Below, one piece after another: positions 4,673 to 61,176 of a stretch of 64,000 nucleotides of DNA. The stretch lies in the NCBI GenBank assembly GCA_009782215.1, contig WRKO01000006.1, positions 1 through 64,000 on the forward strand. Reading direction: 5' to 3'. The notes beneath the pieces are model-generated. The model made no database searches and was not told the origin of the DNA. It was given only the letters and a program-made list of their open reading frames with translations. The translations under genes were made by a program, and so were the position numbers. This DNA is from Oscillospiraceae bacterium (GTDB taxonomy: Bacteria > Bacillota > Clostridia > Oscillospirales > UBA929). Numbering within the stretch: the first letter of the stretch is position 1; each line of letters begins with the position of its first letter.

Positions 4673-8668
<3,996 letters not shown>

Positions 8669-18186: not shown

Positions 18187-18231
18187 CGTGAAACGAAAAC
18201 CAAAATGCAAAAAAACAAGGAGTGGGTACAA

Positions 18232-38703: not shown

Positions 38704-38714
38704 CGGTATGCCGT

Positions 38715-38748
38715 AAAGGGCGGGGTTCGATGATGTCCCCGCCCTTTT
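38715..38748 (+). terminator. Intercistronic terminator-like hairpin
   Basis: Perfect 11-bp stem (38715-38725 with 38737-38747), 11-nt loop, closing in TTTT. It lies between the CBM26 protein and the MalE-type gene and probably gives partial termination, so the surface binding protein is made in excess. Confidence 0.65.
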
Positions 38749-38772
38749 GATTCAATGGCAGGAGGCTTGATG

Positions 38773-39990: not shown

Positions 39991-40046
39991 ACGGAAGCCC
40001 TGTAGGGGCGCGGCGGACAGCCGCCCCCGCCGCGAGGAGGTGTCCT

Positions 40047-41779: not shown

Positions 41780-41784
41780 AAAAG

Positions 41785-43449: not shown

Positions 43450-43454
43450 AGGCA

Positions 43455-44481: not shown

Positions 44482-47061
44482 TCAGTTGACAAGGCCGGCA
44501 TGGCCCTCCCCGGGCGAGAGCGCGCCCAGCTCCTTGATTTTCATAATCGCCTCGTCGCTGTTCATCACGTCGAGTTTCTTGTAAATAAGCTCCATATGGG
44601 TTTTCACGCCGTTTGGCGTGAGCCCCATCCGCTCCGCGATGGCGTTTCGGCTGCATCCCTCGCACATCAGGCGCATGACGGTTTTTTGCTTGTCTGTGAA
44701 GGTCAGGTTTTGAGGCGCCAGACCGCCTGTAAGCCCTTTGGTTCGTTTGGATTCGGAGAGCGCCGCGATATACAGCGTTTTGATGAAGGTGCCGGAAAGT
44801 CCTCTGGCGTGTTCCTTTTGAACGGCGCGTTTTTGCAGCTTGTGCAGCATATTGACAAGCTCGGCGCCCTCGCCCGCGAACACCTGCGTATACCCGTATT
44901 CATGCGCCGCCGCCACGGCCCGCTCCAAATAATCCATCGCGACAGAAAGGCCTCCCCGGCCTTTTTTCCAATAAGCGACGGCGAGCAGAATCTGGGCTTC
45001 AATCACATCAAGGGGCCGCCTGTAACGCTCGCTCAGCTTCAGCAGCTTTTGAAGATGCAATACCGCGTGGTTATAATCCCCTATGACGATATAGGCCCTC
45101 GCGGTGGTAAAATTTTGATATAATTTGTAAAAAGTAATGGTATCATAAATATTCCCGGTGTGGTCTTTCAGCCATTCCTCCGCGGCCGCCCGTTCGCCGT
45201 TTGTCAGCTTGAGCCTGCACAGGTAGGCCCGCAAGTTTGATTTCAGATAAAAGGCCTTGTCATGCTCAATCATGCTGGTTATCTTGCCCAATATCTTTTC
45301 GGCTTCGGTTTGCCGGTTGTCCGCCATCAAAGCCGCCGTCAAAATCATCATGGCGCAAAACTTTATTTCGGGCGAACAGCCCTCCGGGATATTCGCGCAC
45401 GCCGCCAGCGCGTATTCGCAAGCCTTGTCATGGCTGCCCTTTTCATAATGAAAGCCGGCATACAGGCAATGCCGCAGAACAGAAAACTCGGCGCCCATGA
45501 CAAGGCCGAACGTCTTCTCCGCCAGCGACAACTGTTTCTCCGCATCATCAACCGTCAATTCGGAAAAATCCCTAAGCGAGCGGTGGCAGAACGGCATGTT
45601 GATGGTAACGCTCGGCGTATAGGCCTTGATGCTTCCCTTGAAAATGCCTTTCAGGGGAACCTTGCGTATGGCGCCGCAGACGTCGGCAAAATTCTGCCTG
45701 TAGTCCAAGGCGGGCAGAATCATGTGAATAATCGCCGAACGCGGGTTTTGCAGGACGATTTTCGAGAACATACCGTGATAGGTGTCCAAGTACCGCTCAA
45801 AATCCTTGGCGCGTCCCTCCACATAAGCCGCCCAAGCCTGAACCTCCAAAAGAAAGGGATATTTTTCCACAATAGAATCGTTGACCGACATATGAATGGC
45901 GTACAGCGTATCCTCAATAGACGCGTAAGGGGAATTGTAATCGTACATACAATAAAGCGATTCCGCCACACCGCCGTCGTTCTTGCCTTTTAAGTAATAC
46001 TCCAAGGAGCGGAAGCAATCCTTTTTGTTGAAATAATAATCACCCGCCCTGTTCCATTGCGCGGCGGCCGCCCGCTCTCCGCGCGCCTCCAGCATATGCA
46101 GCAGGAAATCGCGGAACAAATCGTGAAAGCGGTATGTATCGGCGCCCGTTTTCCTCAAAAAGGCGTTTTCGCGTGTGAGCTTTGCCAATAGCTCCGCGCC
46201 GGACGCCTTTTTCAGCGTCTTTTCGTCCGCGGCAAGCCATTCGCACAGCTCCGGGGTAAGCTCGCTCGCCACCGACACAAGCGTCATAAAGCTCTTGGTG
46301 CGGTCGTCCCACCGCGTCCATACATGGGTTTTCAGAAAATTCTGCAAATACTGCCCGGTCAGGTCGATGTTGCAGGATTCCTCGTCCGACAGCAGCAGGG
46401 CGCGGATGCCGATGGCCCAGCCGCCGGTGGACGCCAGAATCTCGCCGGCTTGCCGGCTTGTAAGGGAGCGCCCGTTCCGGTTGAAAAAAATCTTAATCTC
46501 CTCGCTTGTAAACTGCAAATACTCCGCGTCCACCACGGCCAGCTCGCCTTTGGCCACCGCCTCCGAAAAACTGTCCGGCGGCGCGGCGCGGCTGAGAAGC
46601 ATGACCATACAGCTCCCGGGCAGCCGTTTAATGAACGTCGGCAGCAGGGTCAGCAGCTCCTCGTTTTTGATGACGTGCAAATCGTCCAAAACGAGGACGG
46701 ACGGGGTCTGCCGCTCGGTAAAGATACGCAGGGCCTGTAGGGTGAACTCGACGGGAGCTGTGCCGAAGCCGGGATGCGAGACAAGCTCCCGCAGGGCGGC
46801 GTTCTCCGGCTGAAGGCCCAAGAGGGCGGACACAAACCGCTTGCAAAATTCGGCGGTTTTATTGTCATGCTCGTCAAGGCTGATCCATGACTGCTCCAGC
46901 TTGGCCGCCGCGCTTCTGTGTTCCAGCCACAGCAGGGCGGATACGGTTTTGCCGAAACCGGCCGGCGCGTGGATATAGACGACCTGCTTTTCCGACAGCC
47001 CGTCCAGCAATTTCATCATCGTCGTTCTCGGCGCGTGCGCCTTCAGGATTGTTTGCTCCAT
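44482..47061 (-). CDS. MalT-like LuxR-family ATP-dependent transcriptional regulator
   Basis: Large STAND-type activator of 859 residues. An N-terminal P-loop (HAPAGFGKT, near residue 32) and a Walker B-like SVLVLDDLHVI mark the NTPase; a winged-helix region and a long helical TPR-like sensor follow; the C terminus is a LuxR helix-turn-helix (FTDKQKTVMRLMCEGCSRN). ATG 47061 lies 8 nt after GAGG; ATG 47067 is too close to the site. MalT itself controls maltose genes, and the maltodextrin operon lies just downstream, so that target cannot be excluded. However, it is divergent from the vanX operon and shares its control region, which makes that operon the likelier target. The inducer is unknown. 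Confidence 0.88.
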   Translation of the reverse strand: MEQTILKAHAPRTTMMKLLDGLSEKQVVYIHAPAGFGKTVSALLWLEHRSAAAKLEQSWISLDEHDNKTAEFCKRFVSALLGLQPENAALRELVSHPGFGTAPVEFTLQALRIFTERQTPSVLVLDDLHVIKNEELLTLLPTFIKRLPGSCMVMLLSRAAPPDSFSEAVAKGELAVVDAEYLQFTSEEIKIFFNRNGRSLTSRQAGEILASTGGWAIGIRALLLSDEESCNIDLTGQYLQNFLKTHVWTRWDDRTKSFMTLVSVASELTPELCEWLAADEKTLKKASGAELLAKLTRENAFLRKTGADTYRFHDLFRDFLLHMLEARGERAAAAQWNRAGDYYFNKKDCFRSLEYYLKGKNDGGVAESLYCMYDYNSPYASIEDTLYAIHMSVNDSIVEKYPFLLEVQAWAAYVEGRAKDFERYLDTYHGMFSKIVLQNPRSAIIHMILPALDYRQNFADVCGAIRKVPLKGIFKGSIKAYTPSVTINMPFCHRSLRDFSELTVDDAEKQLSLAEKTFGLVMGAEFSVLRHCLYAGFHYEKGSHDKACEYALAACANIPEGCSPEIKFCAMMILTAALMADNRQTEAEKILGKITSMIEHDKAFYLKSNLRAYLCRLKLTNGERAAAEEWLKDHTGNIYDTITFYKLYQNFTTARAYIVIGDYNHAVLHLQKLLKLSERYRRPLDVIEAQILLAVAYWKKGRGGLSVAMDYLERAVAAAHEYGYTQVFAGEGAELVNMLHKLQKRAVQKEHARGLSGTFIKTLYIAALSESKRTKGLTGGLAPQNLTFTDKQKTVMRLMCEGCSRNAIAERMGLTPNGVKTHMELIYKKLDVMNSDEAIMKIKELGALSPGEGHAGLVN

Positions 47062-47089: not shown

Positions 47090-47118
47090 ATTATATCAGA
47101 CCCGTGAGACAATGTCAC
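47090..47118 (-). promoter_or_regulatory. Promoter of the MalT-like regulator
   Basis: Minus strand: GTGACA (47118-47113), 17-bp spacer, TATAAT (47095-47090), with an upstream TG that makes it an extended -10. The -35 element abuts the palindrome at 47119-47134, which would allow autoregulation. Confidence 0.7.
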
Positions 47119-47145
47119 TTGAAAAATTTTTCAAACTACACCACC
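47119..47145 (+). promoter_or_regulatory. Palindrome plus direct box: candidate activator site in the divergent promoter
   Basis: A perfect 16-nt palindrome, TTGAAAAATTTTTCAA (47119-47134), runs into AACTACACCACC (47134-47145). The same 12-nt box recurs at 59637-59648, after a similar A/T dyad and at the same distance from a -10 element. Relative to the predicted vanX start it covers about -70 to -44, where an activator would bind. Confidence 0.65.
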
Positions 47146-47173
47146 ACCGGCGTTCTTTCGCCGCGAAAAACTA

Positions 47174-47182
47174 TGCTATACT
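47174..47182 (+). promoter_or_regulatory. Extended -10 promoter of the vanX-to-exporter operon
   Basis: TGCTATACT, an extended -10 with TATACT at 47177-47182. No TTGACA-like -35 lies 16-18 bp upstream (47154-47159 is TCTTTC), which suggests an activator-dependent promoter. Predicted start is near 47189. Confidence 0.6.
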
Positions 47183-47188
47183 GCCTTT

Positions 47189-47938
47189 ATGTACAAAAAA
47201 AGGAAGAGAGGATGTGAACAAAACAAGATGTTCACCATATCACGCCGGAGATTATTCATCGCTCTGACGCTTGTCCTGCTGCTGTTCGCGGGATGCGCGG
47301 GACAGACGGACACCCAAGACGCGGACGCGCTGCCGGACGGCTTTGTCTACCTGACCGACGTTGTCCCGGACGCAATCCTTGAAATCCGCTACTACAGCAC
47401 ATACAACTTTGTCGGCGCGCGGGTTGACGGCTACCTCGCGCCCACCGCCGTCATCAGCCAACCGGCGGCGGAAGCGCTGAAGCAGGTGAGCGAGGCTTTA
47501 TGGGCGCGGGGCTACGCAATCAAGGTCTTTGACGCGTACCGGCCGCAGAGCGCGGTCAACCACTTCGTGCGCTGGGCGGCGGACGCGGGCGACGTATCCG
47601 CAAAGGCCTATTTTTACCCGGACATAGCCAAAGACCGCATCATCCCCGACGGGTATATCATGGAGCGGTCGGGTCATTCCCGCGGCAGCACGGTGGACTT
47701 AACCCTCGTCGAGCTGCTGACGGGCAGGGAGGTCGATATGGGAACCCCCTTTGATTTCTTCGGGCTGGCGTCCCACCACGGCTCCGATTTAATCACGGCG
47801 GAGCAGACGGCAAACCGTCTGATTCTCAAAGACGCAATGGAGAAAGCGGGGTTTAACCTATACGACGAGGAATGGTGGCACTACACCCTGCGGGATGAAC
47901 CCTATCCCGACACGTACTTTACGTTTCCCGTGAAATAA
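47189..47938 (+). CDS. VanX-type D-alanyl-D-alanine dipeptidase (lipoprotein)
   Basis: Zinc metallopeptidase of family M15D that cleaves D-Ala-D-Ala. Seen: a lipoprotein signal (LLLLFAGC) that puts it outside the membrane; the ILEIRYYSTYNFVGARVDGY and VFDAYRPQSA segments; zinc ligands in SGHSRGSTVD (His, Asp) and the catalytic Glu plus zinc His in EEWWHY. The start is uncertain: ATG 47189 coincides with the predicted transcription start, so ATG 47228 behind AGAGAGG may be used. Classical VanX is cytoplasmic and lowers D-Ala-D-Ala pools; an extracellular form would act on released wall peptides. It is the first gene of the long operon, 31 nt before the STAS gene. No vanA/vanH is present. Confidence 0.88.
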   Translation: MYKKRKRGCEQNKMFTISRRRLFIALTLVLLLFAGCAGQTDTQDADALPDGFVYLTDVVPDAILEIRYYSTYNFVGARVDGYLAPTAVISQPAAEALKQVSEALWARGYAIKVFDAYRPQSAVNHFVRWAADAGDVSAKAYFYPDIAKDRIIPDGYIMERSGHSRGSTVDLTLVELLTGREVDMGTPFDFFGLASHHGSDLITAEQTANRLILKDAMEKAGFNLYDEEWWHYTLRDEPYPDTYFTFPVK

Positions 47939-47969
47939 CCAACAAAATAAAGAACAAGGAGAGCTGAGT

Positions 47970-48269
47970 ATGGAAATCGAGAAAACACTAAGCGGAGAGA
48001 CCTGCGCCTTAGCGCTGACCGGGCGAATTGACACCGTCACGTCGCCGAAGCTGCAAGAAGCCCTGATGGAAGCCATTTCGTCGGCCGCGACCACCGAGCT
48101 GGATTTCGCGCGGATAGACTACGTGTCGTCGGCGGGCTTGCGCGTCCTGCTGCTGGGCGAAAAAAACGCCAAAGCGTCCGGCAGGAGCGTGACGCTCAAA
48201 AACGTATCGCCCGAGGTGATGGAGGTCTTTGAAATCACCGGCTTTTCGGGCATTTTAACCATCGTGTAA
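47970..48269 (+). CDS. STAS-domain anti-sigma factor antagonist (SpoIIAA/RsbV-like)
   Basis: Single STAS domain of 99 residues. The phospho-acceptor serine is in IDYVSSAGLRVLLLG, in the usual place, and the fold pattern (EKTLSGETCALALTGRID at the N terminus) fits. Such proteins bind HATPase-type anti-sigma kinases and are switched by phosphorylation. No sigma factor is encoded here; instead two degenerate HATPase-like partners follow (48292-48867 and the end of 51866-52927), so it may control the transporter and not a sigma factor. Confidence 0.9.
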   Translation: MEIEKTLSGETCALALTGRIDTVTSPKLQEALMEAISSAATTELDFARIDYVSSAGLRVLLLGEKNAKASGRSVTLKNVSPEVMEVFEITGFSGILTIV

Positions 48270-48291
48270 GTCAATACGGGAGGGAAAGAAA

Positions 48292-48867
48292 ATGAAATCG
48301 GATATCTACACCGAAGAACACGGAATGGAAACCATCCTTGCGGAAATGGACAGAATCGGGCAGTTTTGCAAGCTGTCCCGCCTATCCGCGCGCAGGCTCC
48401 GGCTCATCGCGGAGGAAATGCTGAGCCTGACCGTGCGCCTGTTCGACAACCTGAAATACGAGTTTTACGCGGAAAACAACGAAAAGCATTTTACGCTGAA
48501 CCTCACGGCCGAAACGGCTGTCACGCAAAGCAAAAAGGACAAGATGCTCTCCCTTTCCACCAGCGGCAAAAACAAAGCGGCGCAGGGCCTGTTCGGCAAA
48601 ATCAGCAGCGTTTTTGAAAGCCTGCTTGTGGACGGCGGCGGCCATGACCCAATCTATGTCCCGTATTACGACAGCATAGGGATGGCGACCTATTTCTCCC
48701 TGTCCGCCTACCGCGACGCAATCAACGAGACGCCCTACGCGTCGGCGGAAGAGAAGCAGGAGCAATGGGACGGGCTGGAAAAATCCATCATAGCCACTCT
48801 CGCGAAGGACGTCGTCATCGGCGTGAGAAGCAGCAAGGTAGAAATGATTGTCGCCATAGAGCTTTGA
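48292..48867 (+). CDS. Degenerate HATPase (RsbW-like) protein, probable STAS partner
   Basis: 191 residues, no membrane segment. Residues about 23-55 (KLSRLSARRLRLIAEEMLSLTVRL) resemble the N-box helix of RsbW/SpoIIAB kinases, where E-E-x-L lies before a normally conserved Asn that is absent here. The G1/G2 ATP-lid boxes are not clear. A central SKKDKMLSLSTSGKNKAAQG stretch is lysine/serine-rich. I infer a non-catalytic or altered anti-sigma-like partner from its place 22 nt after the STAS gene; the fold is not certain. Confidence 0.5.
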   Translation: MKSDIYTEEHGMETILAEMDRIGQFCKLSRLSARRLRLIAEEMLSLTVRLFDNLKYEFYAENNEKHFTLNLTAETAVTQSKKDKMLSLSTSGKNKAAQGLFGKISSVFESLLVDGGGHDPIYVPYYDSIGMATYFSLSAYRDAINETPYASAEEKQEQWDGLEKSIIATLAKDVVIGVRSSKVEMIVAIEL

Positions 48868-48911
48868 GTGCCGCCGTCAAGCCGGGGCGCGGATAGGGGG
48901 AACGGGAGAAG

Positions 48912-51869
48912 ATGCGTAGAAAAACGCTGCTTTTGGGTGTGATATCAGCGATCCTTCTGCTGCCGGCGCTGGCGGGCTGCTCCGAGCAGCGGCAGCAAAG
49001 CGCCGGGGCGGTCACATCCCTCGCGCAGTTAAGCGAAGCCGGAATGAAAATCGGCGTCCCGACCGGGGCCAAATCGGACGAGGTCGCCCGGGAACGCTTT
49101 CCCGATACCGGAATCGTGCAGTACAGGGATTTGGGAGACGGCTTTATCGCGCTTAAAACGGGGAAAATCGACGGGTTTTGCTTTACGAAAAACATCATGC
49201 AGGTTGTTGTGAACCAAAACCCCGACCTAACCCTCCTTGACGAGGTCATTGACAAAAACGACTTGGCCCTCGGCGCGAGATTGGGCGATACCGCCCTGAT
49301 CGCCGAGATAAACGCTGCGATACAAGCCTTTCACGCCAACGGCCAGAGCGCGGAGATGGAAGCCAGATGGCTGGGAACGGACATGAATCCGGTGATGCCG
49401 TACATAGAACCCGCCGCGAACCCGTCGAAAACGCTCGTTGTGGGCATTGCCAACGACGAGCAGCCGATGGGCTACCTTGACGCGGACGGCCGTCCGACCG
49501 GCTTTGACTCGGAGTATATTCAGCGGCTGGCCAAGGAGCTGAACTTTGCCGTTGATTTGCGCCCGATGGAGTTTAACGCGCTCATACCCTCCCTGCAATC
49601 GGGCAGAATCGACCTGATTATAGCCAACCTGAATATCACGGAGGAGCGGCGGCAGAGCCTGCTGTTCTCAGACGTTTACATGACGACGGATATTGTGATG
49701 ATGGTCAGGAAGCCGGACGACGGCGCGCAGGCCTATTTCCGCGCCGGGGATTTCGCGGGAAAATCCTTTGCCATCATCACGGGGTCTATCTGGGATACGG
49801 TTCTGGCGGCAAACATCCCCGACGCGAGGCAGGTGCATTTCAATTCCATCTCGGAAACGGTCATGGCGCTCAAGCAGGGAAAGGTGGACGCCACCCTTAC
49901 GGGCGTCGCGCTGGCCAAAAGGTTTGGCGTGATATACCCCGACTTGGAGCTGCTTTACCCGCCGATTCTGGAGGCCGACACCGCGTTTATCTTCGGCAAG
50001 GAAAACCTCTGGCTCCGGGAGACCTTCAACGGCTTTCTGCGGGAGCTTCACGCAAACGGCGTCTACGCGGACATGGAACAGCGCTGGATGAATACGGTTG
50101 ACCCGCCCGATATGCCGGATATCGGCGGCACGGGCGAAAACGGCAAGCTCATCTTCGCCACAACCGGGACAAGCGACGTCTTTTCCTTCGTTCAAAACGG
50201 GAAGCCCGCGGGCTTTGAGGTTGAAATGGCGTACCGTTTCGCGCGGTATGCGGGGATGGAGCTTGAGATTCAGCTCATGGACTTCGCCGGCATCATTCCC
50301 GCCGTTCATGCGGGCCGGGCCGACTTCGCCGGCGCCAGCTTCGCCGTCACCGAAGAACGCAGGCAGTCCGTCGATTTTTCCGACACGGTCTACTCCGACG
50401 GAATCGCCGTCACGGTACGCAAGGAAAGCGGTTTGGGCGCGAAGGCGCCCGAAATCTTCCGCGCGGAGGATTGGGCGGGGAAGAAAATCTCCGTCCTCAC
50501 GGGAACGGTCTTCGACCAAATCATAGCGGAGTGGGTTCCCGGCGCGGAGCCGGTCTATTTCAACACCGTCGCCGACGGAATCGAAGCGCTGAAAAACGGC
50601 AGGGCAGACGGCATCATGGGGGACGACACGGTTTTGCGGCTCCACACCGCGAAGCATCCGGGGCTTGTCATGCTGGAACCCTTTGTAACCTCCGATGCGT
50701 TCGGCGCCGCCGTATCCAAGGAACAGCCTGAACTGCTGAATCAGATAAACGCCTTTATCGCGCAGATTAAGGCGGACGGAATCCTTGACGATATGATGGC
50801 CCGATGGCTGGACGGGGAGGAGCCGCCGCCCATGCCCGCGATTCCCGAGGGCAGCGGAGAAACGCTGCGGTTCGGCACCACCGATATTGTGGACGGCTTT
50901 TCCTATATCTCGCACGGCGAGCTGACGGGCTTTGACATTGAGTTTGTCAAGCGCTTCGCGGCGTATGCGGACAGGAAGCTGGAGATTTCCGCCGTAAGCG
51001 ACCACGGCGCGTTGATTATGGGCGTGCAGACCGGCGTTTACGACATGGCGGCGTCGCTGTTCACCATCACCGAGGAGCGCGGGCAGAGCGTCAATTTCAC
51101 CGACCCGTACTACATAGGCGGCTCGGCGGTGGCCGTGTTTGACCGTTCATCGGCGGCCCAAGCCGACGGGAACGGAGGCTTTTGGAACAGCTTGAAAACC
51201 AGCTTCGAGCGCAACCTTCTCCATGAAAACCGCTGGGAAATGATTGTCGAAGGCTTGCGGGTCAGCATCATCATCACGCTTTTGGCGTTCGCGCTGGCGA
51301 CCTTGCTGGGCTTCGGCGTCTGCGGCCTGAGAATGAGCGGGAACCCGCTGCTCAGAGCCGCCGGTCAAATCTACATTACCGTCCTGCGCGGCACGCCGAT
51401 TGTCGTGCTGCTGATGATTACGTTTTACGTCATCTTCGCCAAAAGCGGCGTCAGCGGGACGATGGTCGCGGTGATTGCGTTCGGGGCCAACGGCGCGGCG
51501 TTTATCGGCGAAATCATCCGCAGCGCCATTCTGACGGTGGACAAGGGGCAGGTTGAAGCGGCGCGGAGCATGGGCTTCTCCAAAATCGGCGCGTTCTTCA
51601 CCGTGACCTTTCCGCAGGCTGTCCGGGTGGCGTTCCCGGTGTATATGTCCGAGTTTATCGCGCTGTTCAAAATGACCTCGGTGGTGGGGTATATCGCCGT
51701 CGTGGATTTGACCAAAGCGGGCGATATCATCCGCAGCCGCACATACGACGCGTTCTTCCCGCTGCTGTTCGTCGCGCTGGTGTACTTGGCGGCGGCCTCG
51801 CTGATGATTTGGCTGTTTGGAACGGCGGAGCGCATGACCAATAAGCGCCTGAGGAGGAGAGCGAGATGA
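48912..51869 (+). CDS. Fused amino-acid-type ABC binding protein/permease with split and tandem binding domains (985 aa)
   Basis: A GlnP-like fusion. Lipoprotein-type signal ending LLLPALAGC. Residues about 35-155 match only the second half of an SBP_bac_3 domain (lobe 2 plus C-terminal return). Two full SBP_bac_3 domains follow (about 168-400 and 409-645), each with GF(D/E).E....A and TEERRQSx.FSD. Residues about 648-745 match only the first half of such a domain. Then comes a HisM/GlnQ-type permease (about 770-985) with the EAA loop [21 protein letters not shown]. The two half-domains at the ends could together make a third, permuted binding domain. Substrate is presumably a polar amino acid or a cell-wall/peptide-derived amino acid. 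Overlaps the ATPase gene by 4 nt. Confidence 0.88.
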
Positions 51870-52927
51870 TTTCAATCAAAAACCTGCAAAAGAGCTACGG
51901 CAGCCTTGCGGTCATCAGGGACATCACCACCACCATCGAAAAAGGCGAGGTCATAACGATCATCGGCCCGTCGGGAACGGGCAAAAGCACCTTCCTCCGC
52001 GCCTTGAATATGCTCGACCCGCCCACGGGCGGCACGATTGAGTTTGAGGGGCAAAGCCTCACGGATAAAAAGACCGACCTCAACCATATCCGCAAGAAGA
52101 TGGGCATGGTGTTTCAAAACTTCAATCTGTTCGCCCACATGAGCGTCTTGGACAACCTCTGCGTCGGGCCGACCAAGCTGCTGGGCGTCTCCCGCGCCGA
52201 AGCTGAAAAAACCGCGCGGGAGCTGCTGGCGACGGTGGGGCTTGCCGAAAAAGCGGACGCTTACCCCGACGAGCTGTCCGGCGGGCAGAAGCAGCGCGTC
52301 GCCATCGCCCGCTGCCTGTCGATGAAGCCGGACATCATGCTCTTTGACGAGCCGACCAGCGCCCTTGACCCGACGATGGTGGGCGAGGTCACGGCGGTCA
52401 TCAGGCGTCTGGCGCAGAGCGGCATGACGATGGCGATTGTCACCCATGAGATGGAGTTTGCCAAAAACGTATCCACACGGATTATTTATATGGACGAGGG
52501 CGGCATCTATGAGGAAGGCCCGCCGGACGTTATCTTCGGCGCGCCCAAGCGGGAAAAGACGCGGGCGTTTATCAGGCGCGTCAAGAGCTTCCGGTATGAG
52601 ATACGCTCGGAGGCGTTCGATTTCATCGGGCTTACCAACAGCCTGCTGAACTTCTGCGCGGCAAACGCGCTGTCAAAGTCCGACACAAACAAAGCGGGGC
52701 TGATGTCCGAAGAGCTGACGGTAAACCTCATTGACAAGAAGGACTTGCTCGGCCTGCATTTCAGCTTCCCGGACAGTCTGGAATCCTTTGAGCTTACCGT
52801 CACATACGGCGGCGAGGCGCGGGACGTGACCCGAACCGGCGGCATGGAAGCCGATATCATCCGGGGGCTTGCCGGCAGCGTGACCCATGATTACGACGGG
52901 GTAAACCGTCTTTGCCTAAAGTGGTAA
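51866..52927 (+). CDS. GlnQ-type ABC ATPase with C-terminal HATPase-like extension
   Basis: Residues 1-240 are a complete amino-acid-transporter ATPase: Walker [10 protein letters not shown]-loop VFQNFNLF, signature [15 protein letters not shown], Walker [13 protein letters not shown], switch His in VTHEME. GlnQ proteins normally end there; this one has about 110 more residues. In that tail, [27 protein letters not shown] and [21 protein letters not shown] recall the N-box and the closing helix of RsbW/SpoIIAB anti-sigma kinases. The extension could be a docking site for the STAS protein encoded upstream. The ATPase is firm; the extension is inference. Confidence 0.9.
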
Positions 52928-52941
52928 AAAAGGAGATTATG

Positions 52942-54441
52942 ATGATGAAACGGAAATTCTTATCCCTTACCCTCGCGGCCGTCCTCACGCTCTCGCCGGC
53001 GGCGGTCTTTCCGCAGACGGCGTTGTCGTTGGAGAATACGGTACATATCCCGGCGGCAAGCGAAGGCATGAGCATCGTCGTACCGGCGGCGCTTCAGCCG
53101 GGCGACAAGGTGGGAATCGTCGCGCCGGCCAACCCCGCGACGGCCGAGAGGCTGGAGCTTGCCATAGAGCTTTTGGAGGAAAGAGGGTTTGAGGTCGTCG
53201 TCTCCGACAATATTGATGTTACTACCGAATACGGGCTCGGCGACGGCAGTGAGCAAATACGCGCCGACGCCTTTAACAAACTCGCCCGCGACCCTGATAT
53301 CAAGGCGCTTTTCTGCCTGCGCGGCGGATACGGCGCTATGCACTTGCTGCCGCTTATAGATTATGAAGCGCTAAGGCGAAACAGGCCAATCATCGTCGGC
53401 TACAGCGACATCACCGCAATGCAGATTGCGATTTTGCAGAACGCGGGGCTTGTCACCTTCCACGGCCCCATGCTCTCCTCCAACTACGGGCAGGATGAGG
53501 CTTTCGACTGGCTGTTTGATATGCTGATGAACCCGAGCGATGAATTTCCTCTTAAAAACATAGACGGCACAGAGTTTTCCGTCATCAACGAAGGGACGGC
53601 GGAAGGGATTGTCGTCGGCGGCAATTTGACGCTAATCAGCGTACTGATGGGCACGGAATATGAGCTGGACTTGAAAGACAAAGTGCTGTTTATCGAGGAA
53701 TTGAACGAGGCCCCGTATAAGCTGCATCGGTATATCTGGCAGCTTAAACTGGCGGGCAAGCTAGACGACGCGGCGGCGATTGTGATTGGCGATATCTTGC
53801 CGGACAGAGAGTATGACGACCCCGAAATCTCACTCAAGGTAATCTTTGAGGCGTTGAAGGACGTAACCGTGCCCATATTGTATAACGTCCGCGCCGGACA
53901 TGGCGCAAATCCCTTTACCATCCCCATAGGCGCCACGGTTAGAATTGAGGGAAACGAAATAACGGTCGCGCAAAGCGTTGTGGAAGACCCGGATGAAGCA
54001 AAAAACAACAGGATTGTTACCCGCGCCGAATTTACCGCGATGATGATGGACGCGCTGGACGGCAATCTGGACAATATCGGGATGGCGGAGCCGTTTGACG
54101 ATGTTCCCCAAAATTCACTGTATTACGCTCCGGTGACCAATGCCCGGGCGCTGGGCCTTGTATCCGGCGCGGGAAACAACAAATTCATGCCGGACGCGGC
54201 CCTGACAGTTCAGGATATGCTTGTGATGGTCTATAACGCGCTGGATAAAACCGGCAGACTCCCCGCTTTTCAATCAGACAGGTGGGTCGAGTTTGACGAC
54301 TGGGACGAGGTGGCGGAGTATGCCGGAGGCCCGATACAAGCATTGGCGAAAATGTATGAACTCAGCGGCGCTTTGAATCCAAGAAAGCCCGTTGCCTATG
54401 CGGAAAGCGTGGTCTGGATATGGAGAATGACAAATGGATAA
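52942..54441 (+). CDS. SLH-anchored LD-carboxypeptidase (family S66, LdcA/MccF-like)
   Basis: Secreted serine peptidase. Signal peptide (residues 1 to about 30), then an S66 domain (about 45-340): nucleophile Ser in VGYSDITAM (near residue 153), Glu in FIEELNEAPYKLHR (near 251) and His in RAGHGANPF (near 318). Two to three SLH-like modules (about 355-500: FDDVPQNSLYYAPVTNARALGLVSG) tether it to the wall. S66 members either trim murein tetrapeptides or, as MccF, give self-immunity to peptide antibiotics. Start ATG 52942 is 6 nt after AAGGAG. It overlaps the first NHLP exporter gene by 8 nt, so it is made together with the exporter. Confidence 0.9.
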   Translation: MMKRKFLSLTLAAVLTLSPAAVFPQTALSLENTVHIPAASEGMSIVVPAALQPGDKVGIVAPANPATAERLELAIELLEERGFEVVVSDNIDVTTEYGLGDGSEQIRADAFNKLARDPDIKALFCLRGGYGAMHLLPLIDYEALRRNRPIIVGYSDITAMQIAILQNAGLVTFHGPMLSSNYGQDEAFDWLFDMLMNPSDEFPLKNIDGTEFSVINEGTAEGIVVGGNLTLISVLMGTEYELDLKDKVLFIEELNEAPYKLHRYIWQLKLAGKLDDAAAIVIGDILPDREYDDPEISLKVIFEALKDVTVPILYNVRAGHGANPFTIPIGATVRIEGNEITVAQSVVEDPDEAKNNRIVTRAEFTAMMMDALDGNLDNIGMAEPFDDVPQNSLYYAPVTNARALGLVSGAGNNKFMPDAALTVQDMLVMVYNALDKTGRLPAFQSDRWVEFDDWDEVAEYAGGPIQALAKMYELSGALNPRKPVAYAESVVWIWRMTNG

Positions 54442-55012
54442 CAAACTGTTTAGAAAGAGCGCGCTGGACAAGATTTCGTCGCCGGAGCAGCTCAACGAGT
54501 ATATGAAGGTCGCCGGCCCGGGTGTGTGGTGCGTACTGGCGGCCTTGGCGGTGACGTTCGCGGCGTTTTTCGCGTGGGGCGCGCTGGGTTCAATCCCGGA
54601 AACGGTGGAGCTTACGGGTACAGCGCTCGCGCCGGAGGGCTCGCCGATGGCGGTTTACTGCTTCCTGCCGATCGACGAAACCAAGCCACTGGCCGTCGGC
54701 ATGAGCGTCCGCGTTTCACCGGGCTATGCCCCGAGGGAGCAATACGGCTACATATACGGGACGGTGCAAAGCATAGGCCGCTCGCCGGTTACGGCCGAAC
54801 AGCTCCAAGAGACGCTCGGGGGAGACCTCGAGCTAATCTTTCTGCCCCCCGGCAATGTGATTGAGGTCGTCGTCGGGCTGGAAATGGTGAGCGGCGGCAG
54901 ACCGCGATGGTCAACGTCCAAGGGCGCGTCGGTGGATGTGACGGTCGGCTCGGCCTGCGTTTTGACCGTTGTCACGGCGGAGCGGAAACCGTATGAGCTG
55001 ATGTTCCGATAG
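54434..55012 (+). CDS. NHLP-type peptide export accessory protein (HlyD-like)
   Basis: 192 residues: short cytoplasmic N terminus (LFRKSALDKISSPEQLNEYMK), one transmembrane helix (about 30-52), and a small HlyD-like barrel domain (IPETVELTGTALAPEGSPMAVYCFLP). This layout is that of the NHLP bacteriocin-system secretion protein, which bridges the exporter to the outside. The start lies inside the S66 gene (8-nt overlap), and 12 nt separate it from the peptidase-containing ABC protein. Confidence 0.85.
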   Translation: MDNKLFRKSALDKISSPEQLNEYMKVAGPGVWCVLAALAVTFAAFFAWGALGSIPETVELTGTALAPEGSPMAVYCFLPIDETKPLAVGMSVRVSPGYAPREQYGYIYGTVQSIGRSPVTAEQLQETLGGDLELIFLPPGNVIEVVVGLEMVSGGRPRWSTSKGASVDVTVGSACVLTVVTAERKPYELMFR

Positions 55013-55024
55013 GGGGCTGACGGA

Positions 55025-57166
55025 TTGGCTAAGGTAGAAAAGGTACCCTTTATCATGCAGATGGAAGCGCTGGAATGCGGGGCGGCTTCGCTCTGCATGG
55101 TCTTGGCGTATTACAAAAAGTGGATTCCGCTGGAGCAGGTGCGCGCCGACTGCGGCGTGTCCCGTGACGGCTGCAACGCCCGCAATATCTACCGCGCCGC
55201 CGTCTCCTACGGGCTGAAGCCCACGGCATACCGCATGGAGCCTGCGGAACTCAGAGGCATCAAGCTCCCCGCCGTCATCCATTGGAATTTCAACCATTTC
55301 GTGGTTCTGAACGGCTTTAAGAAGAAATGCGCCGTCATCAACGACCCCGGCAGGGGTACGACCGAGGTGTCGCTTGAGGAGTTTGACAAAGCGTTCACCG
55401 GGATTGTCATTACCTTTGAAACAACGCCGGAGTTTGTCCCCGAGGGCAGGCCGAGGAGCGTGCTGGGCTTTGCCATGAAGCGGATGAAGGGCACTCTGAC
55501 GGCGTTTGTCTTCGTCTTCCTGATGGGCGCCTTCGCGTCGCTGATTGACATATTAAATCCGGTATTCACCCGCGTCTTCATGGACGATATCCTGTCCGGG
55601 CGGACGCGGTCGTGGCTGATTCCGTTTATTCTGGCCATGCTGGCCGCGCTGTTGGTCAGGCTGATTTTGTCGGTCGTCAACGCCATATACCGGCTCCGCA
55701 TGGAAGGCAAGTTCGCCGTCACCGCCAACGCGGAGTTTTTATGGCACGTTCTGCGGCTGCCGATGGAGTTTTTCTCCCAGCGTTACGCGGGCGATATCAT
55801 CATGCGGCAAAGCTCGAACGAGGGCATCGCGAGTATGCTCATTTCCCAGCTATCGCCCATCTTCATCAACATGGGCCTGATGGTGTTTTATTTCATCATG
55901 CTCTTGCAGTACAACCCGATTTTGACGGTCATCGGAATCACCTCGGCGGTGCTGAATATGGCGCTGTCGCAGTACATGGCGAAGAAAAGCGTCGCCTTTG
56001 CCAGACTGTCCCAAGCGTCGGGCGGCAACCTCGGCTCGATTACCCTGTCCAGCATCGACATGATTGAAACCATCAAAGCCAGCGGCGCCGAGGGCGGCGT
56101 CTTCGAGCGTTACGCCGGGTATTTGGCCAAGCAGCACAACGCGGGCATGGAGGGGCAGCGGTTTCAGATGAAATTCGGGCTGATTCCTCAGATTATCGAG
56201 CAAATCCTGAGCATCACCGTGATGATGATTGGCGTTATGTTCATCATGGACGGGCATATGACCATCGGCACAATGGCGGCGTTTCAGGGCTTCCTCGGCT
56301 CGTTCCTCGCGCCCGTCGGGCAGCTTTCGGGCGTCGCGCAGAGCTTCACCATAATGCGAACCAACATGGAGCGGGTGGAGGACGTGATGAACTACAAGAC
56401 AATTGACAATGGACAATTGACAATGGACAATTATTGTTTTGGGAAGTTGTCGGGTTCCCTCAAAATTGACAATATTACGTTTGGGTATAACAAGCTTTCA
56501 CCTCCATTGATTAAGAATTTTTCGCTGGAATTGGCGCCGGGCAAATCGGTTGCGATTGTGGGCGCGTCCGGGTCGGGCAAGTCAACCCTTGCCAAGCTGA
56601 TCACCGGGCTGTATGAGCCGTGGGAAGGGGAGATCACCTTCGGCGGCAAGCGGCGGGTGGAGATAGACGAGTATTCCTTCCGCAGCTCGGTGTCTATGGT
56701 AGACCAAGAGGTCACGCTGTTTGAAGACACCGTCGCCGAAAACATCCGCATGTGGGATCCGTCCATCGAGGACTTCGCGGTCATTCTCGCGGCGCGGGAC
56801 GCGGACATTCACGAAACCATCGTGACGCGTCAGGGCGGGTATCAGCAGATTGTGGCGGAAAACGGCAAGAACTTCTCCGGCGGTCAGCGCCAGCGGCTGG
56901 AAATAGCGCGGGTGCTGGCGCAGGAGCCGGTGATTGCCGTGCTGGACGAGGCCACCAGCGCGCTGGACGCGAAAACCGAGGAAACGGTGATGAACAATAT
57001 CCGAAAGGTCGGCTGCTCCTGCGTCGTCATCGCGCACAGGCTGTCCACCGTGCGGGACTGCGACGAGATTATCGTGCTGGAAAAGGGCGACGTGGTTGAA
57101 CGCGGAACCCATGAGGAGCTGTATGGCAAAGGCGGCAAGTATACGGAGCTTGTCGCCACAGAGTAG
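55025..57166 (+). CDS. NHLP-family peptide exporter with C39 peptidase, permease and ATPase domains
   Basis: Cleaves GG-type leaders and exports the cores. C39 domain (about residues 1-130) with catalytic Cys18 in MEALECGAAS, His in HWNFNHFVVLNG and Asp in INDPGRG. Six-helix ABC membrane domain (about 155-440). ATPase (about 480-713): GASGSGKS, SGGQRQRLEIARVLA, VLDEATSALD. Start is TTG at 55025, 9 nt after AGGGGG. A short in-frame heptamer-repeat insertion (56399-56433) sits in the linker just before the ATPase; the frame stays open and all motifs are intact. It works with the accessory protein and with the second ABC protein. Confidence 0.93.
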   Translation: MAKVEKVPFIMQMEALECGAASLCMVLAYYKKWIPLEQVRADCGVSRDGCNARNIYRAAVSYGLKPTAYRMEPAELRGIKLPAVIHWNFNHFVVLNGFKKKCAVINDPGRGTTEVSLEEFDKAFTGIVITFETTPEFVPEGRPRSVLGFAMKRMKGTLTAFVFVFLMGAFASLIDILNPVFTRVFMDDILSGRTRSWLIPFILAMLAALLVRLILSVVNAIYRLRMEGKFAVTANAEFLWHVLRLPMEFFSQRYAGDIIMRQSSNEGIASMLISQLSPIFINMGLMVFYFIMLLQYNPILTVIGITSAVLNMALSQYMAKKSVAFARLSQASGGNLGSITLSSIDMIETIKASGAEGGVFERYAGYLAKQHNAGMEGQRFQMKFGLIPQIIEQILSITVMMIGVMFIMDGHMTIGTMAAFQGFLGSFLAPVGQLSGVAQSFTIMRTNMERVEDVMNYKTIDNGQLTMDNYCFGKLSGSLKIDNITFGYNKLSPPLIKNFSLELAPGKSVAIVGASGSGKSTLAKLITGLYEPWEGEITFGGKRRVEIDEYSFRSSVSMVDQEVTLFEDTVAENIRMWDPSIEDFAVILAARDADIHETIVTRQGGYQQIVAENGKNFSGGQRQRLEIARVLAQEPVIAVLDEATSALDAKTEETVMNNIRKVGCSCVVIAHRLSTVRDCDEIIVLEKGDVVERGTHEELYGKGGKYTELVATE
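56399..56433 (+). repeat. Five-unit heptamer repeat inserted in the exporter gene
   Basis: Five consecutive heptamers, alternating ACAATTG and ACAATGG and ending ACAATTA. They are AT-rich in GC-rich surroundings and encode TIDNGQLTMDN in the flexible linker between membrane and ATPase domains. This resembles the short dispersed tandem repeats found between genes in many bacteria, here captured inside a coding sequence. Confidence 0.9.
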
Positions 57167-57180
57167 AGGGGGCCGGGCAG

Positions 57181-59343
57181 ATGAAGGAACTCAACATATT
57201 TGACGAGCAGCTTGAAACGCGCAAGACCGGCGACGAGATGATGTTCGAGAACGCCTTTGACGATTTGATGTCGATTCTGTATAAAAACCCAAAGACGAAA
57301 GAGTCGGACGTCACCGACGCGGTCAGCGCCATCTTAAAGCACCTCGGCCTGAAGGTGGTGGAAACGCCCGAAGCCGTCGCCGGCGCCGAAGCGCGGATTG
57401 AGTATATGCTGCGCCCGTCGGGCGCCATGCGGCGGCGGGTCGAGCTGAAGGGCGAGTGGTGGAAGGCGTCGGTTGACCCGTTCTTCGGCTGTACCGCCGA
57501 CGGCGAGCCGGTGGCGCTGCTGCCGGGCAAAACGGGCGGCTACATATACAGGGACAAAGACGGCAGGAAGGTGAAAATCAACAAAGAAACGGCGAAAGGC
57601 ATCGCCGAGGACGCCTTTTTGTTTTATAAGCCGTTTGCGCTGAAAAAGCTCAGGCTGGCGGATTTGGCGCTCTTCATGGCGAAAAATCTGCGCGTCTCCG
57701 ACTTCGTCTATGTCATGGTCATTAGCCTGATTGTGTCCCTGCTCGGGCTGGCCACGCCGTATGTCAACAGCCAGCTTTACGGCACGGTCATCCCCTCCGG
57801 CATCAAGACCAACATACTGGCCGTCGGGTTTCTGCTCGGCGGCACGGCGGTTGGCTCCCTCCTGTTCGGGCTGGCCAGAAGCCTTGTGCTGACCCGGTTT
57901 TCCATGCTGTTTATCAAGGTGCAGAACGCGGCCATGATGCGGGTGCTGTCTCTGCCGGTGGCGTTCTTCAAGGACTACGCCGCGGGCGAGGTGGCCAGCC
58001 GGATGCAGAGCCTGACCAGCCTGTGCCAAACCATATCGAACACCGTCATGTCAACCGGGCTGACGGCGCTCTTCTCCTTTGTCTATCTGTTTCAGATGAA
58101 CCGATACGCGCCGGCGATGGTGGGCCCGGCCTTCCTGATTATCGCCGTCATGCTCACGGTGTCTGTCCTGACGACGGTGTGGCAGATGAAAATCTCCCGC
58201 AGGCGGATGAAAGCGTCGGCCAAGCTGTCGGCGCTGCTGTTCGCGCTGATATCCGGCATACAGAAAATCAAGCTGACCGGCGCGCAGAAGCGGGCGTTTG
58301 CCAAATGGGCGGGCAGCTACAAGGAAATCGGGCAGCTCACCTATTCGCCGCCCATGTTTTTACGTCTGCTGGAGCCGATAAACCTTGTCATTTCGCTCGG
58401 CGGCTCCATCCTGCTCTATTACGCGGCGGGGGCGTCCGGCATCGGCGCGGCGGATTATCTTGCGTTTATGGCGGCTTACGGCGCGCTGTCCGGCGCGATT
58501 ATGATGCTGTCGGGGCTGGCGAGTACCTTCTCGGACATCAGGGTCAACCTTGAAATGGTGCGCCCGCTGATGGAGACGGAGCCGGAAGCGCTGGAAAACA
58601 AAAAGCAAATCACCGCGCTGTCGGGGCGGATGGAGATGAACAACATATCGTTCCGCTACGCGGAGGACGGGCCTCTGATTTTAGACAACATCAGCCTGAA
58701 AATCCGCCCGGGCGAATACGTGGCGATTGTGGGGAAAACCGGCTGCGGAAAATCCACCCTTCTGCGGCTGCTGCTCGGCTTTGAGAAGCCCGAAACGGGC
58801 GCGATTTATTACGACGGGCACAGCTTGGAAAGCCTTGACCTCCGCGCCCTGCGGCAGTGCATCGGCGTGGATTTGCAAAACGGCAAGCTGATGGCCGGCT
58901 CGATTTTTGCCAACATCGTCGTCACCGCGCCGTGGAAAACGCTCGACGACGCGTGGGAAGCGGCCGAGATGGCGGGCATTGCCCAAGACATCCGGGAAAT
59001 GCCGATGGGGATGCACACCATGATTGCCGAGGGCGGCGGCGGCGTGTCCGGCGGTCAGCGCCAGCGGCTGCTCATCGCCAGAGCGCTCATTTCCAAGCCC
59101 AAGCTGATTTTCTTCGACGAGGCCACCAGCGCGCTGGACAACATCACGCAGAAGCACGTCGCCGACTCGGTGGCGTCCCTCAAGGCGACCCGCGTCATCA
59201 TCGCCCACAGGCTTTCCACCATCAAGGGCTGCGACAAGGTCGTCGTGCTGGACGCGGGCAAAATCGTCGAGCAGGGCGGGTACGACGAGCTGATGGAGAA
59301 ACGGGGCGAGTTTTATGAGCTGGTGAGGCGGCAGACGGTATGA
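57181..59343 (+). CDS. NHLP-family peptide export ABC permease/ATPase (720 aa)
   Basis: Second ABC half-transporter of the NHLP system. A cytoplasmic N-terminal domain of about 160 residues (no C39 Cys/His pair) is followed by an ABC membrane domain (about 175-450) and an ATPase (about 485-720): GKTGCGKS, GGGVSGGQRQRLLIARALI, LIFFDEATSALD. In known NHLP loci this protein pairs with the peptidase-containing ABC protein. 14 nt separate it from that gene and 30 nt from the first precursor gene, so all belong to one operon. Confidence 0.92.
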   Translation: MKELNIFDEQLETRKTGDEMMFENAFDDLMSILYKNPKTKESDVTDAVSAILKHLGLKVVETPEAVAGAEARIEYMLRPSGAMRRRVELKGEWWKASVDPFFGCTADGEPVALLPGKTGGYIYRDKDGRKVKINKETAKGIAEDAFLFYKPFALKKLRLADLALFMAKNLRVSDFVYVMVISLIVSLLGLATPYVNSQLYGTVIPSGIKTNILAVGFLLGGTAVGSLLFGLARSLVLTRFSMLFIKVQNAAMMRVLSLPVAFFKDYAAGEVASRMQSLTSLCQTISNTVMSTGLTALFSFVYLFQMNRYAPAMVGPAFLIIAVMLTVSVLTTVWQMKISRRRMKASAKLSALLFALISGIQKIKLTGAQKRAFAKWAGSYKEIGQLTYSPPMFLRLLEPINLVISLGGSILLYYAAGASGIGAADYLAFMAAYGALSGAIMMLSGLASTFSDIRVNLEMVRPLMETEPEALENKKQITALSGRMEMNNISFRYAEDGPLILDNISLKIRPGEYVAIVGKTGCGKSTLLRLLLGFEKPETGAIYYDGHSLESLDLRALRQCIGVDLQNGKLMAGSIFANIVVTAPWKTLDDAWEAAEMAGIAQDIREMPMGMHTMIAEGGGGVSGGQRQRLLIARALISKPKLIFFDEATSALDNITQKHVADSVASLKATRVIIAHRLSTIKGCDKVVVLDAGKIVEQGGYDELMEKRGEFYELVRRQTV

Positions 59344-59373: not shown

Positions 59374-59652
59374 ATGAAACGGCATGAGCCAGTCCAGATA
59401 AACGAAACGGAACTGCACGCGGTCACGGGCGGCGGCGGGAACGATTACTACGACCCGATTCAATGCTTCCTGCCAAAGCCGGACAGCCGGTGCCGCATCA
59501 GAAACGGCGGCCTCCGCTGCCTTCATATGAGAATCGAAACGATGATGGCCGGCGCGTCTGAAAAATATCGCTATATCTGCGCGAAAGGCTGCTTTGATTA
59601 TCTGTCAGACTGCAAATTGCATGAAAATAATTTTCCAACTACACCACCGTAG
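59374..59652 (+). CDS. Precursor peptide 1: 20-residue GG leader and Cys-rich core
   Basis: 92 residues. The leader ends INETELHAVTGG at residue 20, the C39-type double-glycine site. The core of about 72 residues has six cysteines, a YDPIQC motif shared with precursors 2 and 3, and ends in YICAKGCFDYLSDC plus a proline-rich tail. AAAGGAG lies 9 nt before the ATG. It directly follows the exporter genes. The last codons (PTTPP, stop) are read from the promoter box of the next unit, so this 3' end and the regulatory site overlap. Function as an exported peptide (bacteriocin, signal) is inferred. Confidence 0.8.
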   Translation: MKRHEPVQINETELHAVTGGGGNDYYDPIQCFLPKPDSRCRIRNGGLRCLHMRIETMMAGASEKYRYICAKGCFDYLSDCKLHENNFPTTPP

Positions 59653-59685
59653 GTGCTTACTATGACGTGAAATGTCTGATATGCT
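59622..59685 (+). promoter_or_regulatory. Second copy of the activator-box promoter, driving precursors 2-5
   Basis: An A/T dyad (59622-59637), then AACTACACCACC (59637-59648), then an extended -10 TGATATGCT with TATGCT at 59680-59685. The box-to-hexamer distance is 31 nt, identical to the vanX promoter. There is no -35 hexamer (TTACTA at 59657-59662). Predicted start is near 59692. Confidence 0.6.
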
Positions 59686-59796
59686 TGAAAAAAATCGGGA
59701 ATCGAACGTGACATAGGGGGTTTGAAAATGGGCGATGATGAACAACTGCGCGAGGCAAACAACGGAAACACAAAAAATAATGGGGAGGATATCAAA

Positions 59797-60066
59797 ATGA
59801 ATGAGCGGAAAACAGACGAACTGACAGAAACAGAACTGGACGCCGTCGCGGGCGGGGCCACGACAAACCGTTACAATCCGGCGGAATGCTCTAAGCACAA
59901 TGACGTCCACTACAACTGCGTCGGCTTTTTGTCGGGCAACTGGTGCGACCACTACAGGCGAACCATTGATAACTCCAGCGAGTGGGAAACGAAGATTTAC
60001 AGACGGTGCGTCATGGGCTTCTTTGACGTTACCGAAACCCAAGCAAAAGACCCCGGCCTGACATAA
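59797..60066 (+). CDS. Precursor peptide 2: short GG leader and WCDHY-type Cys core
   Basis: 89 residues from ATG 59797 (GGGGAGG 8 nt upstream). An upstream in-frame ATG at 59728 also has a good site (AGGGGG, 7 nt) and would add 23 residues; I prefer 59797 because it gives a 20-residue leader, equal to precursor 1, ending ELTETELDAVAGG. The core contains NRYNPAEC, NCVGFLSGNWCDHY and YRRCVMGFFD, with four cysteines. The same core type occurs in precursor 3 behind an unrelated leader. Confidence 0.8.
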   Translation: MNERKTDELTETELDAVAGGATTNRYNPAECSKHNDVHYNCVGFLSGNWCDHYRRTIDNSSEWETKIYRRCVMGFFDVTETQAKDPGLT

Positions 60067-60106
60067 CCCAAGGCGGCCCCAAACGGAACACAAGGAGGAA
60101 ATGAAA

Positions 60107-60523
60107 ATGAACCAAATGCAAGCGTTTATCGAAAAAGCCAGAAGTGACAAGGACTTGATGGCACGGCTTGACGCCCTTGGCGCAAGCGGCGCGGAAATGG
60201 AAAAGGTCGTGGCCCTAGCCGCTGAGTACGGCTTCACCGTCACGGAGGAAGACTGCCGGCAAGCCGCCGCCCGGGCGTGTCCGCATAAAGCGGGAAAGCT
60301 GGCGGAGGAGGACTTAGAAGCTGTGGCGGGGGCATTTGGCACCGAAAACCGCTACGACCCGGCTGTCTGCGGACAGTATACCAGAGTGCATTTTAACTGC
60401 GTCGGCTTTTTGGGCGGACACTGGTGTGACCATTACGTGCAGAAAACCATCAAAAGCGGTCATTGCCGATACAAATGCAATATGGGCTATTATGAGTATG
60501 AGTTGATCGGCGCCGGACATTAA
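60107..60523 (+). CDS. Precursor peptide 3: Nif11-type leader and WCDHY-type Cys core
   Basis: 138 residues. The N-terminal 76 residues are a Nif11-like leader (MNQMQAFIEKARSDKDLMAR..., then AAEYGFTVTEED) that ends EEDLEAVAGA, a GA rather than GG cleavage site. The core repeats precursor 2: ENRYDPAVC, NCVGFLGGHWCDHY and YKCNMGYYEYE, with five cysteines. ATG 60107 lies 8 nt after AAGGAGG, so it is preferred to ATG 60101. No modification enzyme is encoded nearby. Confidence 0.85.
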   Translation: MNQMQAFIEKARSDKDLMARLDALGASGAEMEKVVALAAEYGFTVTEEDCRQAAARACPHKAGKLAEEDLEAVAGAFGTENRYDPAVCGQYTRVHFNCVGFLGGHWCDHYVQKTIKSGHCRYKCNMGYYEYELIGAGH

Positions 60524-60550
60524 ACAGGGCGAAATAAGGAGGCTTACAAA

Positions 60551-60782
60551 ATGAACCAAATGAAAGCGTTCATCGAAAAAGCGAGGAATGACAGCAAGCT
60601 GGCGGTTGAGCTTACCGCGCTCGGCATCACCGGCGCGGAGCCGGACGAAATCGTCGCCGTAGCCGCCGAACACGGCTTCACCATCACGGCCGAAGACCTC
60701 CGGCAAGCCGCCACGGGGGGATAGCGAGCCGTTCCTGCACATATGCGCCAAGGGCTGTTTTTATTACGAAACGGACAATTAG
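60551..60782 (+). pseudogene. Precursor peptide 4: Nif11-type leader, core out of frame after a G6 run
   Basis: ATG 60551 opens a Nif11 leader nearly identical to precursor 3 (MNQMKAFIEKARNDSK..., AAEHGFTITAEDLRQAA) but stops at 60722-60724, after 57 residues, just past a run of six G (60715-60720). In the +1 frame the sequence continues SEPFLHICAKGCFYYETDN to a stop at 60780-60782, and ICAKGCF.Y matches the core end of precursor 1. Loss of one G would restore a fused leader-core peptide, though still without a GG site. It is a decayed gene, a phase-variable gene or a sequencing error. Confidence 0.7.
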
Positions 60783-60852
60783 GAGCGGTTAAGAAATATG
60801 GAACATATGCACGCGCCGAAAAAAACAACGTATGAAAGGAAGAATTGAAACC

Positions 60853-61176
60853 ATGTCAAAGATGAAATTAACCAAAGAGGAAGTCAACGTAAAGCTCAAC
60901 GAGGCGATGAAGGCCGGGAAGCTGCAAAAATCGGGGAAAACGGCGGAGCTTTCCGCCGAACAGCTCGAAGGGGTCACCGGCGGGGTGGGCGCGTGGGCGT
61001 TTGAACACGAAGGCGACGTCTGGTCTGTGGTGTGCAACAAAAACGAAACGACAAACGCGCTGCTGGAAAACTGCCTCGTCTACGAAAAAGCGTGCCAATA
61101 CGCCAGCCCCGGCGCAACGTCCTGCTTCAACTGCCAGCATTTCTACATAGGCAATCTGGGGATAAGGACGGAGTAA
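60853..61176 (+). CDS. Precursor peptide 5: GG leader and five-Cys core
   Basis: 107 residues from ATG 60853 (AAAGGAAG about 10 nt upstream; ATG 60832 overlaps that region). The leader is lysine-rich and helical and ends LSAEQLEGVTGG near residue 44. The core of about 63 residues has five cysteines (VVC, ENC, KAC, SCFNC) and no similarity to the WCDHY cores. It is the last gene of the precursor run and is followed by a GC-rich hairpin. Confidence 0.78.
   Translation: MSKMKLTKEEVNVKLNEAMKAGKLQKSGKTAELSAEQLEGVTGGVGAWAFEHEGDVWSVVCNKNETTNALLENCLVYEKACQYASPGATSCFNCQHFYIGNLGIRTE

Follow-up and report, generated by a model that had tools for sequence, protein, structure and literature searches.

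The same putative activator site occurs at two predicted promoters in the peptide-export cluster of a gut bacterium, and on sequence grounds we take the pair to form a genuine regulatory circuit whose type is broadly known. In our reading, to which we assign a probability of about 0.8, the LAL protein encoded divergently from the first promoter would activate the NHLP operon (promoter 1) and boost the precursor-peptide genes (promoter 2), by a class-II mechanism at sigma-70 promoters. An LAL regulator is favoured because regulator and promoter co-occur in another genome (G021) and because the same promoter layout recurs beside other LAL genes. All coordinates refer to the window, i.e. the whole stretch of 64,000 nt that was analysed, and the main features are collected in Table 1.

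Table 1. Predicted regulatory elements and genes of the two-promoter cluster in the window.
Feature	Position	Strand	Remarks
859-aa LAL/MalT-like activator gene	44482..47061	-	proposed regulator of both promoters
Regulator's own promoter	47090..47118	-	GTGACA-17-TATAAT with TG, 11/12 matches; consensus match only; no operator needed
A/T palindrome TTGAAAAATTTTTCAA, 16 nt, perfect	47119..47134		UP-element-like tract, about -70 to -55
Operator 1, AACTACACC-N6-GGCGTTCTT	47134..47157	+	putative; centre ~-43; upstream half identical with the 12-nt box
Extended -10 TGCTATACT, promoter 1	47174..47182	+	predicted start ~47189, from the usual spacing
Likely promoter 1 operon	47228..59343	+	cotranscription inferred from tight spacing
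92-aa precursor-like ORF (..VTGGGG..)	59374..59652	+	upstream half of operator 2 lies within its last codons
A/T tract GAAAATAATTTTC, imperfect dyad, upstream of operator 2	59623..59635
Operator 2, AACTACACC-N6-GGTGCTTAC	59637..59660	+	putative
Extended -10 TGATATGCT, promoter 2	59677..59685	+	predicted start ~59692
Precursor-peptide genes downstream of promoter 2	59728..61176	+

Gene content of the cluster

The first part of the operon encodes a VanX-like lipoprotein, a STAS protein, a 191-aa protein and a triple SBP-permease fusion; the rest encodes an ABC ATPase, an S66 peptidase-SLH protein, an NHLM HlyD-like protein and the transporters NHLM ABC1 and NHLM ABC2. The NHLM transporters score above their cut-offs (TIGR03796, 887 bits with a cut-off of 853; TIGR03797, 724 bits with a cut-off of 709), which places the cluster in the NHLP type. 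Behind promoter 2, the stretch 60101-60523 matches the Nif11-like leader family (TIGR03798, E 6e-13), i.e. a leader of the Nif11 type is present.

In the 985-aa protein of the NHLP operon (48912-51869) three family-3 solute-binding stretches are fused to an ABC permease. The window also contains a starch/maltose-like operon (37531-44477, with CBM26, solute-binding protein, permease, amylase and LacI regulator), which is convergent with the MalT-like gene and lacks the box, and a 3445-aa SLH-domain surface protein with List-Bact repeats (18205-28542).

Two copies of a rare element

The box AACTACACCACC occurs twice in the 2.36-Mb genome, both times inside the window (47134-47145 and 59637-59648), and a preliminary description of this DNA had located the two identical copies exactly. 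They lie on one strand and within one gene cluster, and the number expected genome-wide from the base composition of the window is 0.26. A genome-wide search for the box, of the kind proposed there, returned it at the two window promoters only. These counts, together with the likeness that stops at the element, bear out the earlier view that chance recurrence is unlikely. Identity between the two copies drops to chance level on either side, over 48 nt before the A/T tract and 41 nt after the -10; since the similarity ends at the element, the copies are not a duplicated segment. Copy 1 is intergenic and copy 2 overlaps the final codons of the 92-aa ORF (..FPTTPP and the stop), so that protein conservation cannot account for the pair. 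The copies in the window and in G021 sit in stop-free frames of 248-277 codons.

The gap between the box and the extended -10 is 28 nt in each copy. The 31 nt given originally is right as the distance to the hexamer and wrong as the gap before TGN; a search for the box plus N31 plus TGNTATNCT, as had been suggested, would miss both copies, N28 being the correct spacing.

Promoter architecture

A consensus scan of promoters 1 and 2 paired no -35 with either -10, in agreement with the preliminary description. The A/T dyad said to precede each box is a perfect 16-nt palindrome at copy 1, and at copy 2 only the imperfect GAAAATAATTTTC is found. This dyad belongs to a conserved A/T tract that probably acts as a UP element: in 17 family promoters, A/T makes up 89% of the ten positions directly before the operator.

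The box itself had been placed at about -55 to -44, where an activator contacts polymerase. The activator-type layout stands; the box does not stand alone, but forms an imperfect dyad centred at about -42.5 with a less conserved downstream half, which agrees at 4-6 of 9 positions only. With respect to the predicted start sites, a dyad near -42.5 in the absence of a -35 corresponds to the class-II arrangement. We interpret the box as the stronger half of a putative class-II operator because the family motif recovered de novo (see below) matches both promoters. The predicted leaders are alike in length, 39 nt for promoter 1 and 36 nt for promoter 2. We note that the predicted start of promoter 1 (47189) coincides with an in-frame ATG; the likelier start codon (47228) comes 39 nt further downstream.

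A third instance in another family

The pattern consisting of the box, N27-29 and TGNTATRNT was scanned over 84,980 species. Only one of the 14 matches agrees beyond the pattern itself, namely that in G021, an Oscillospiraceae MAG (Th196P3bin6); the third copy is in a different family. Here agreement extends to 8 of the 12 nt that follow the box, and an A/T tract precedes the box. This promoter (G021:C33, AAAACTACACCACCATCGGTATTCTCTGCGCGCGAAATTTTTTGCTATACT) is the only other case among 57 relatives in which the box is accompanied by the rest of the promoter. It sits past the stop codon of an FkbM-like gene (a name judged by eye). The contig ends within the gene behind it, and the regulator of G021 is found on a different contig. 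Among 394 genomes of the order, G021 is also the only one outside the window genome that has a relative of the regulator of at least 60% (65%).

The other 13 GTDB matches to the box plus -10, as well as 17 in IMG/VR, show no likeness to the promoter outside the pattern; most of these other pattern matches appear to be coding, with most of the GTDB ones in longer open frames, and open-frame length did not discriminate. Exact or near box matches in 57 and 295 relatives likewise fall mostly in coding-like sequence, and the DNA around them does not resemble the promoter.

In the congener G001 the transporter set is orthologous (ABC1 86%), the best regulator reaches 51%, and the promoter is absent, as read from a short contig of a genome that is 91% complete. 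We treat this pattern as supporting evidence only.

The layout is shared by promoters of related regulators

Motifs were searched de novo by EM from random starts upstream of 22 other MalT-like (LAL) genes, with the window and G021 promoters excluded. The same register was recovered in about 13 loci, i.e. an A/T tract, an imperfect dyad at about -42.5 and a -10. Applied to the plus strand of the window, the motif of width 61 scored promoter 1 highest, with promoter 2 in second or third place; the two came 2nd and 4th at width 51 and were missing from the top hits at width 50, where the motif was overfitted. Comparable divergent promoters with other sequences are AAAACCTCACCCTTGGGGGATTTAC (G003), AAAACCTCATACCGGATGATTT (G762) and, in the window genome itself, AAAATACACCCCCAAGGATG (C39).

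With a PWM built from 13 promoters of other regulators, the two window promoters take the top two places when both strands are scanned, at 24.1 and 21.7; the next independent site in the window scores 13.2. The operator columns alone failed to single out the two promoters within the window. Mean dyad symmetry is maximal 30-31 nt before the -10, i.e. at about -42 to -42.5. Leave-one-out tests combined by Fisher's method gave p of about 1e-14 when the operator was scored with the -10 and 1e-8 when it was scored alone, values that are optimistic because the registers were set by hand. Sixteen further LAL loci, unused in the model, were also scored. The floor of p=0.003 was reached by 4 of 6 closer relatives, one of which (G482) is also terminator-like, and by none of the 10 more distant loci. 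A clear site was not found at the LAL homologues L056, L044, L046, L049 and L058.

Some clostridial relatives have CATCC/GGATG-like arms with a shorter gap. The perfect palindrome AAACTATACCCGGTATAGTTT lies between two divergent LAL genes (L110 ~6360-6500, G000:C7), is flanked by TTGACA/TTTAAT and resembles a repressor operator. It was rejected as a perfect version of the half-site, its arms being 1 nt apart rather than 6 and its position being between -35 and -10.

The regulator and its proposed action

A Walker A motif (APAGFGKT at aa 32) and a Walker B-like motif (VLVLDD at aa 122) characterise the 859-aa protein as a P-loop NTPase. Residues 12-324 match the N-terminal structure of MalT (8bob, E 2e-18), and AAA_16 is below the Pfam cut-off. 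The middle region is a MalT-like TPR domain (TPR_MalT, Pfam E 4e-22; 1hz4, E 4e-5), and the C terminus carries a GerE HTH (aa 787-840, Pfam E 6.5e-11), a feature of LAL proteins. With 207.9 bits, the protein falls below the cut-off of 537 for the MalT equivalog (NCBIfam NF003420, PRK04841). The divergent LuxR/MalT-like product had been named as the first candidate, and its candidacy is strengthened by the co-occurrence across genomes and by the promoter architecture of the same family. Because its own promoter, on the other strand, is near consensus, the regulator could be constitutive and switched by its ligand or ATP state. MalT is known to be switched by ligand or ATP state.

From these features we infer binding, activation, the extent of the operon and the role of the A/T tract. 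A dimer of the LAL protein would bind the imperfect inverted repeat AACTACACC-N6-GGYG.. at about -42.5 through its C-terminal LuxR-type HTH, thereby replacing the -35. The bound protein would recruit RNA polymerase, helped by the A/T-rich, UP-like tract just upstream. Promoter 1 would then drive the NHLP operon, and promoter 2, inside the 3' end of the first precursor ORF, would add transcription of the precursor peptides.

In an alignment of 16 homologues, the recognition-helix motif PNGVK is common to the window protein (TPNGVKTH) and the G021 protein (KPNGVKSH) only, in keeping with a site that serves this pair alone; the remaining homologues diverge more than the paralogues in the window genome (C10, 72%; C7, 65%), which carry PSGVK. 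One of these paralogues might be the main binder, or all three proteins might share the site, given that the HTH regions of the paralogues are 75-77% identical to that of the local regulator. We consider this improbable in view of the difference in the recognition helix and of the genome's only two boxes, which are in the cluster of the local regulator and not beside the paralogues. It is quite improbable, too, that both boxes are bound by the NarL-type response regulator (62541-63167, with a histidine kinase at 61477-62544). It is encoded directly downstream of the cluster and has a GerE HTH as well; however, G021, where the same promoter occurs, yielded no homologue at E 1e-15, and in other genomes the promoter layout is found next to LAL genes.

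As the site extends into the -35 region, a protein bound there could instead block the polymerase and act as a repressor. This is very unlikely because neither promoter has a -35 and the -10 is extended; moreover, relatives of the same geometry, i.e. the lux box at -42.5 (PMC4471428) and MalT of Actinoplanes (PMC7567727), are activators. A reading in which the recurrence is due to chance or to segment duplication and means nothing for regulation, with which the overlap of copy 2 with coding sequence would agree, can practically be dismissed, given the sharp limits of the likeness, the two boxes in one cluster against the 0.26 expected, and the third copy in a different family, accompanied by a close regulator.

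A possible signal input

The 191-aa protein (48292-48867), whose gene follows the STAS gene, has no Pfam or PDB match, and its AlphaFold model (pLDDT 49.5) was too poor for a fold search. By eye, it is possibly a degenerate GHKL partner-switch protein. A 66% relative is encoded immediately downstream of the LAL gene in G021 (L106:3804-4370), and a 34% relative is found in G031 between STAS-like genes, the STAS assignment being by eye (L148:6915-7502); otherwise there are distant relatives only. A partner-switching input is conceivable because relatives of the 191-aa protein adjoin the LAL gene in G021 and STAS-like genes in G031 and in the window. Regulator, 191-aa protein and operator might then form one travelling module in which a partner-switching pair of the STAS and 191-aa proteins controls the LAL ATPase, a proposal that we regard as rather doubtful. 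To our knowledge, a signal input of this kind is not known for the LAL class of regulators. In G001, the orthologous transporter genes are preceded by what appears by eye to be the end of a SpoIIE-type phosphatase (C45, L134:1-363), which would also fit partner switching.

Significance and comparison with known systems

The proposed circuit links one regulator with both of its promoters in an NHLP peptide cluster, and it provides an exact target for binding tests. The family layout may allow the operator and the target of uncharacterised clostridial LAL regulators to be predicted from the divergent intergenic region alone, and it points to a way of turning on peptide clusters of this type in laboratory hosts. 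A literature search for LuxR with NHLP clusters found no paper, and a related search yielded nothing relevant.

The lux box of LuxR-type activators, a 20-bp dyad centred at -42.5 (PMC4471428), is a general precedent: the position of the dyad and the GerE-type HTH are common to both systems, whereas the window protein has a LAL ATPase and no autoinducer domain. E. coli MalT has the same domain order as the window protein, which scores under the MalT cut-off, and the site is near -35 in both. The E. coli boxes, as cited in PMC7567727, are asymmetric (GGGGA(T/G)GAGG) and form a direct repeat, in contrast to the imperfect inverted repeat in the window. The closest experimental parallel is MalT of Actinoplanes sp. 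SE50/110, where the palindrome TCATCC-5nt-GGATGA overlaps the -35 at many promoters of one large gene region, its 3' end being 34.4 +/- 1.0 nt from the start site and its centre at about -43 (PMC7567727). This site differs from the AACTACACC-N6-GGYG of the window in sequence and spacing. In other respects the two systems are alike, i.e. a MalT-type LAL activator, a similar position of the site and several promoters in one region.
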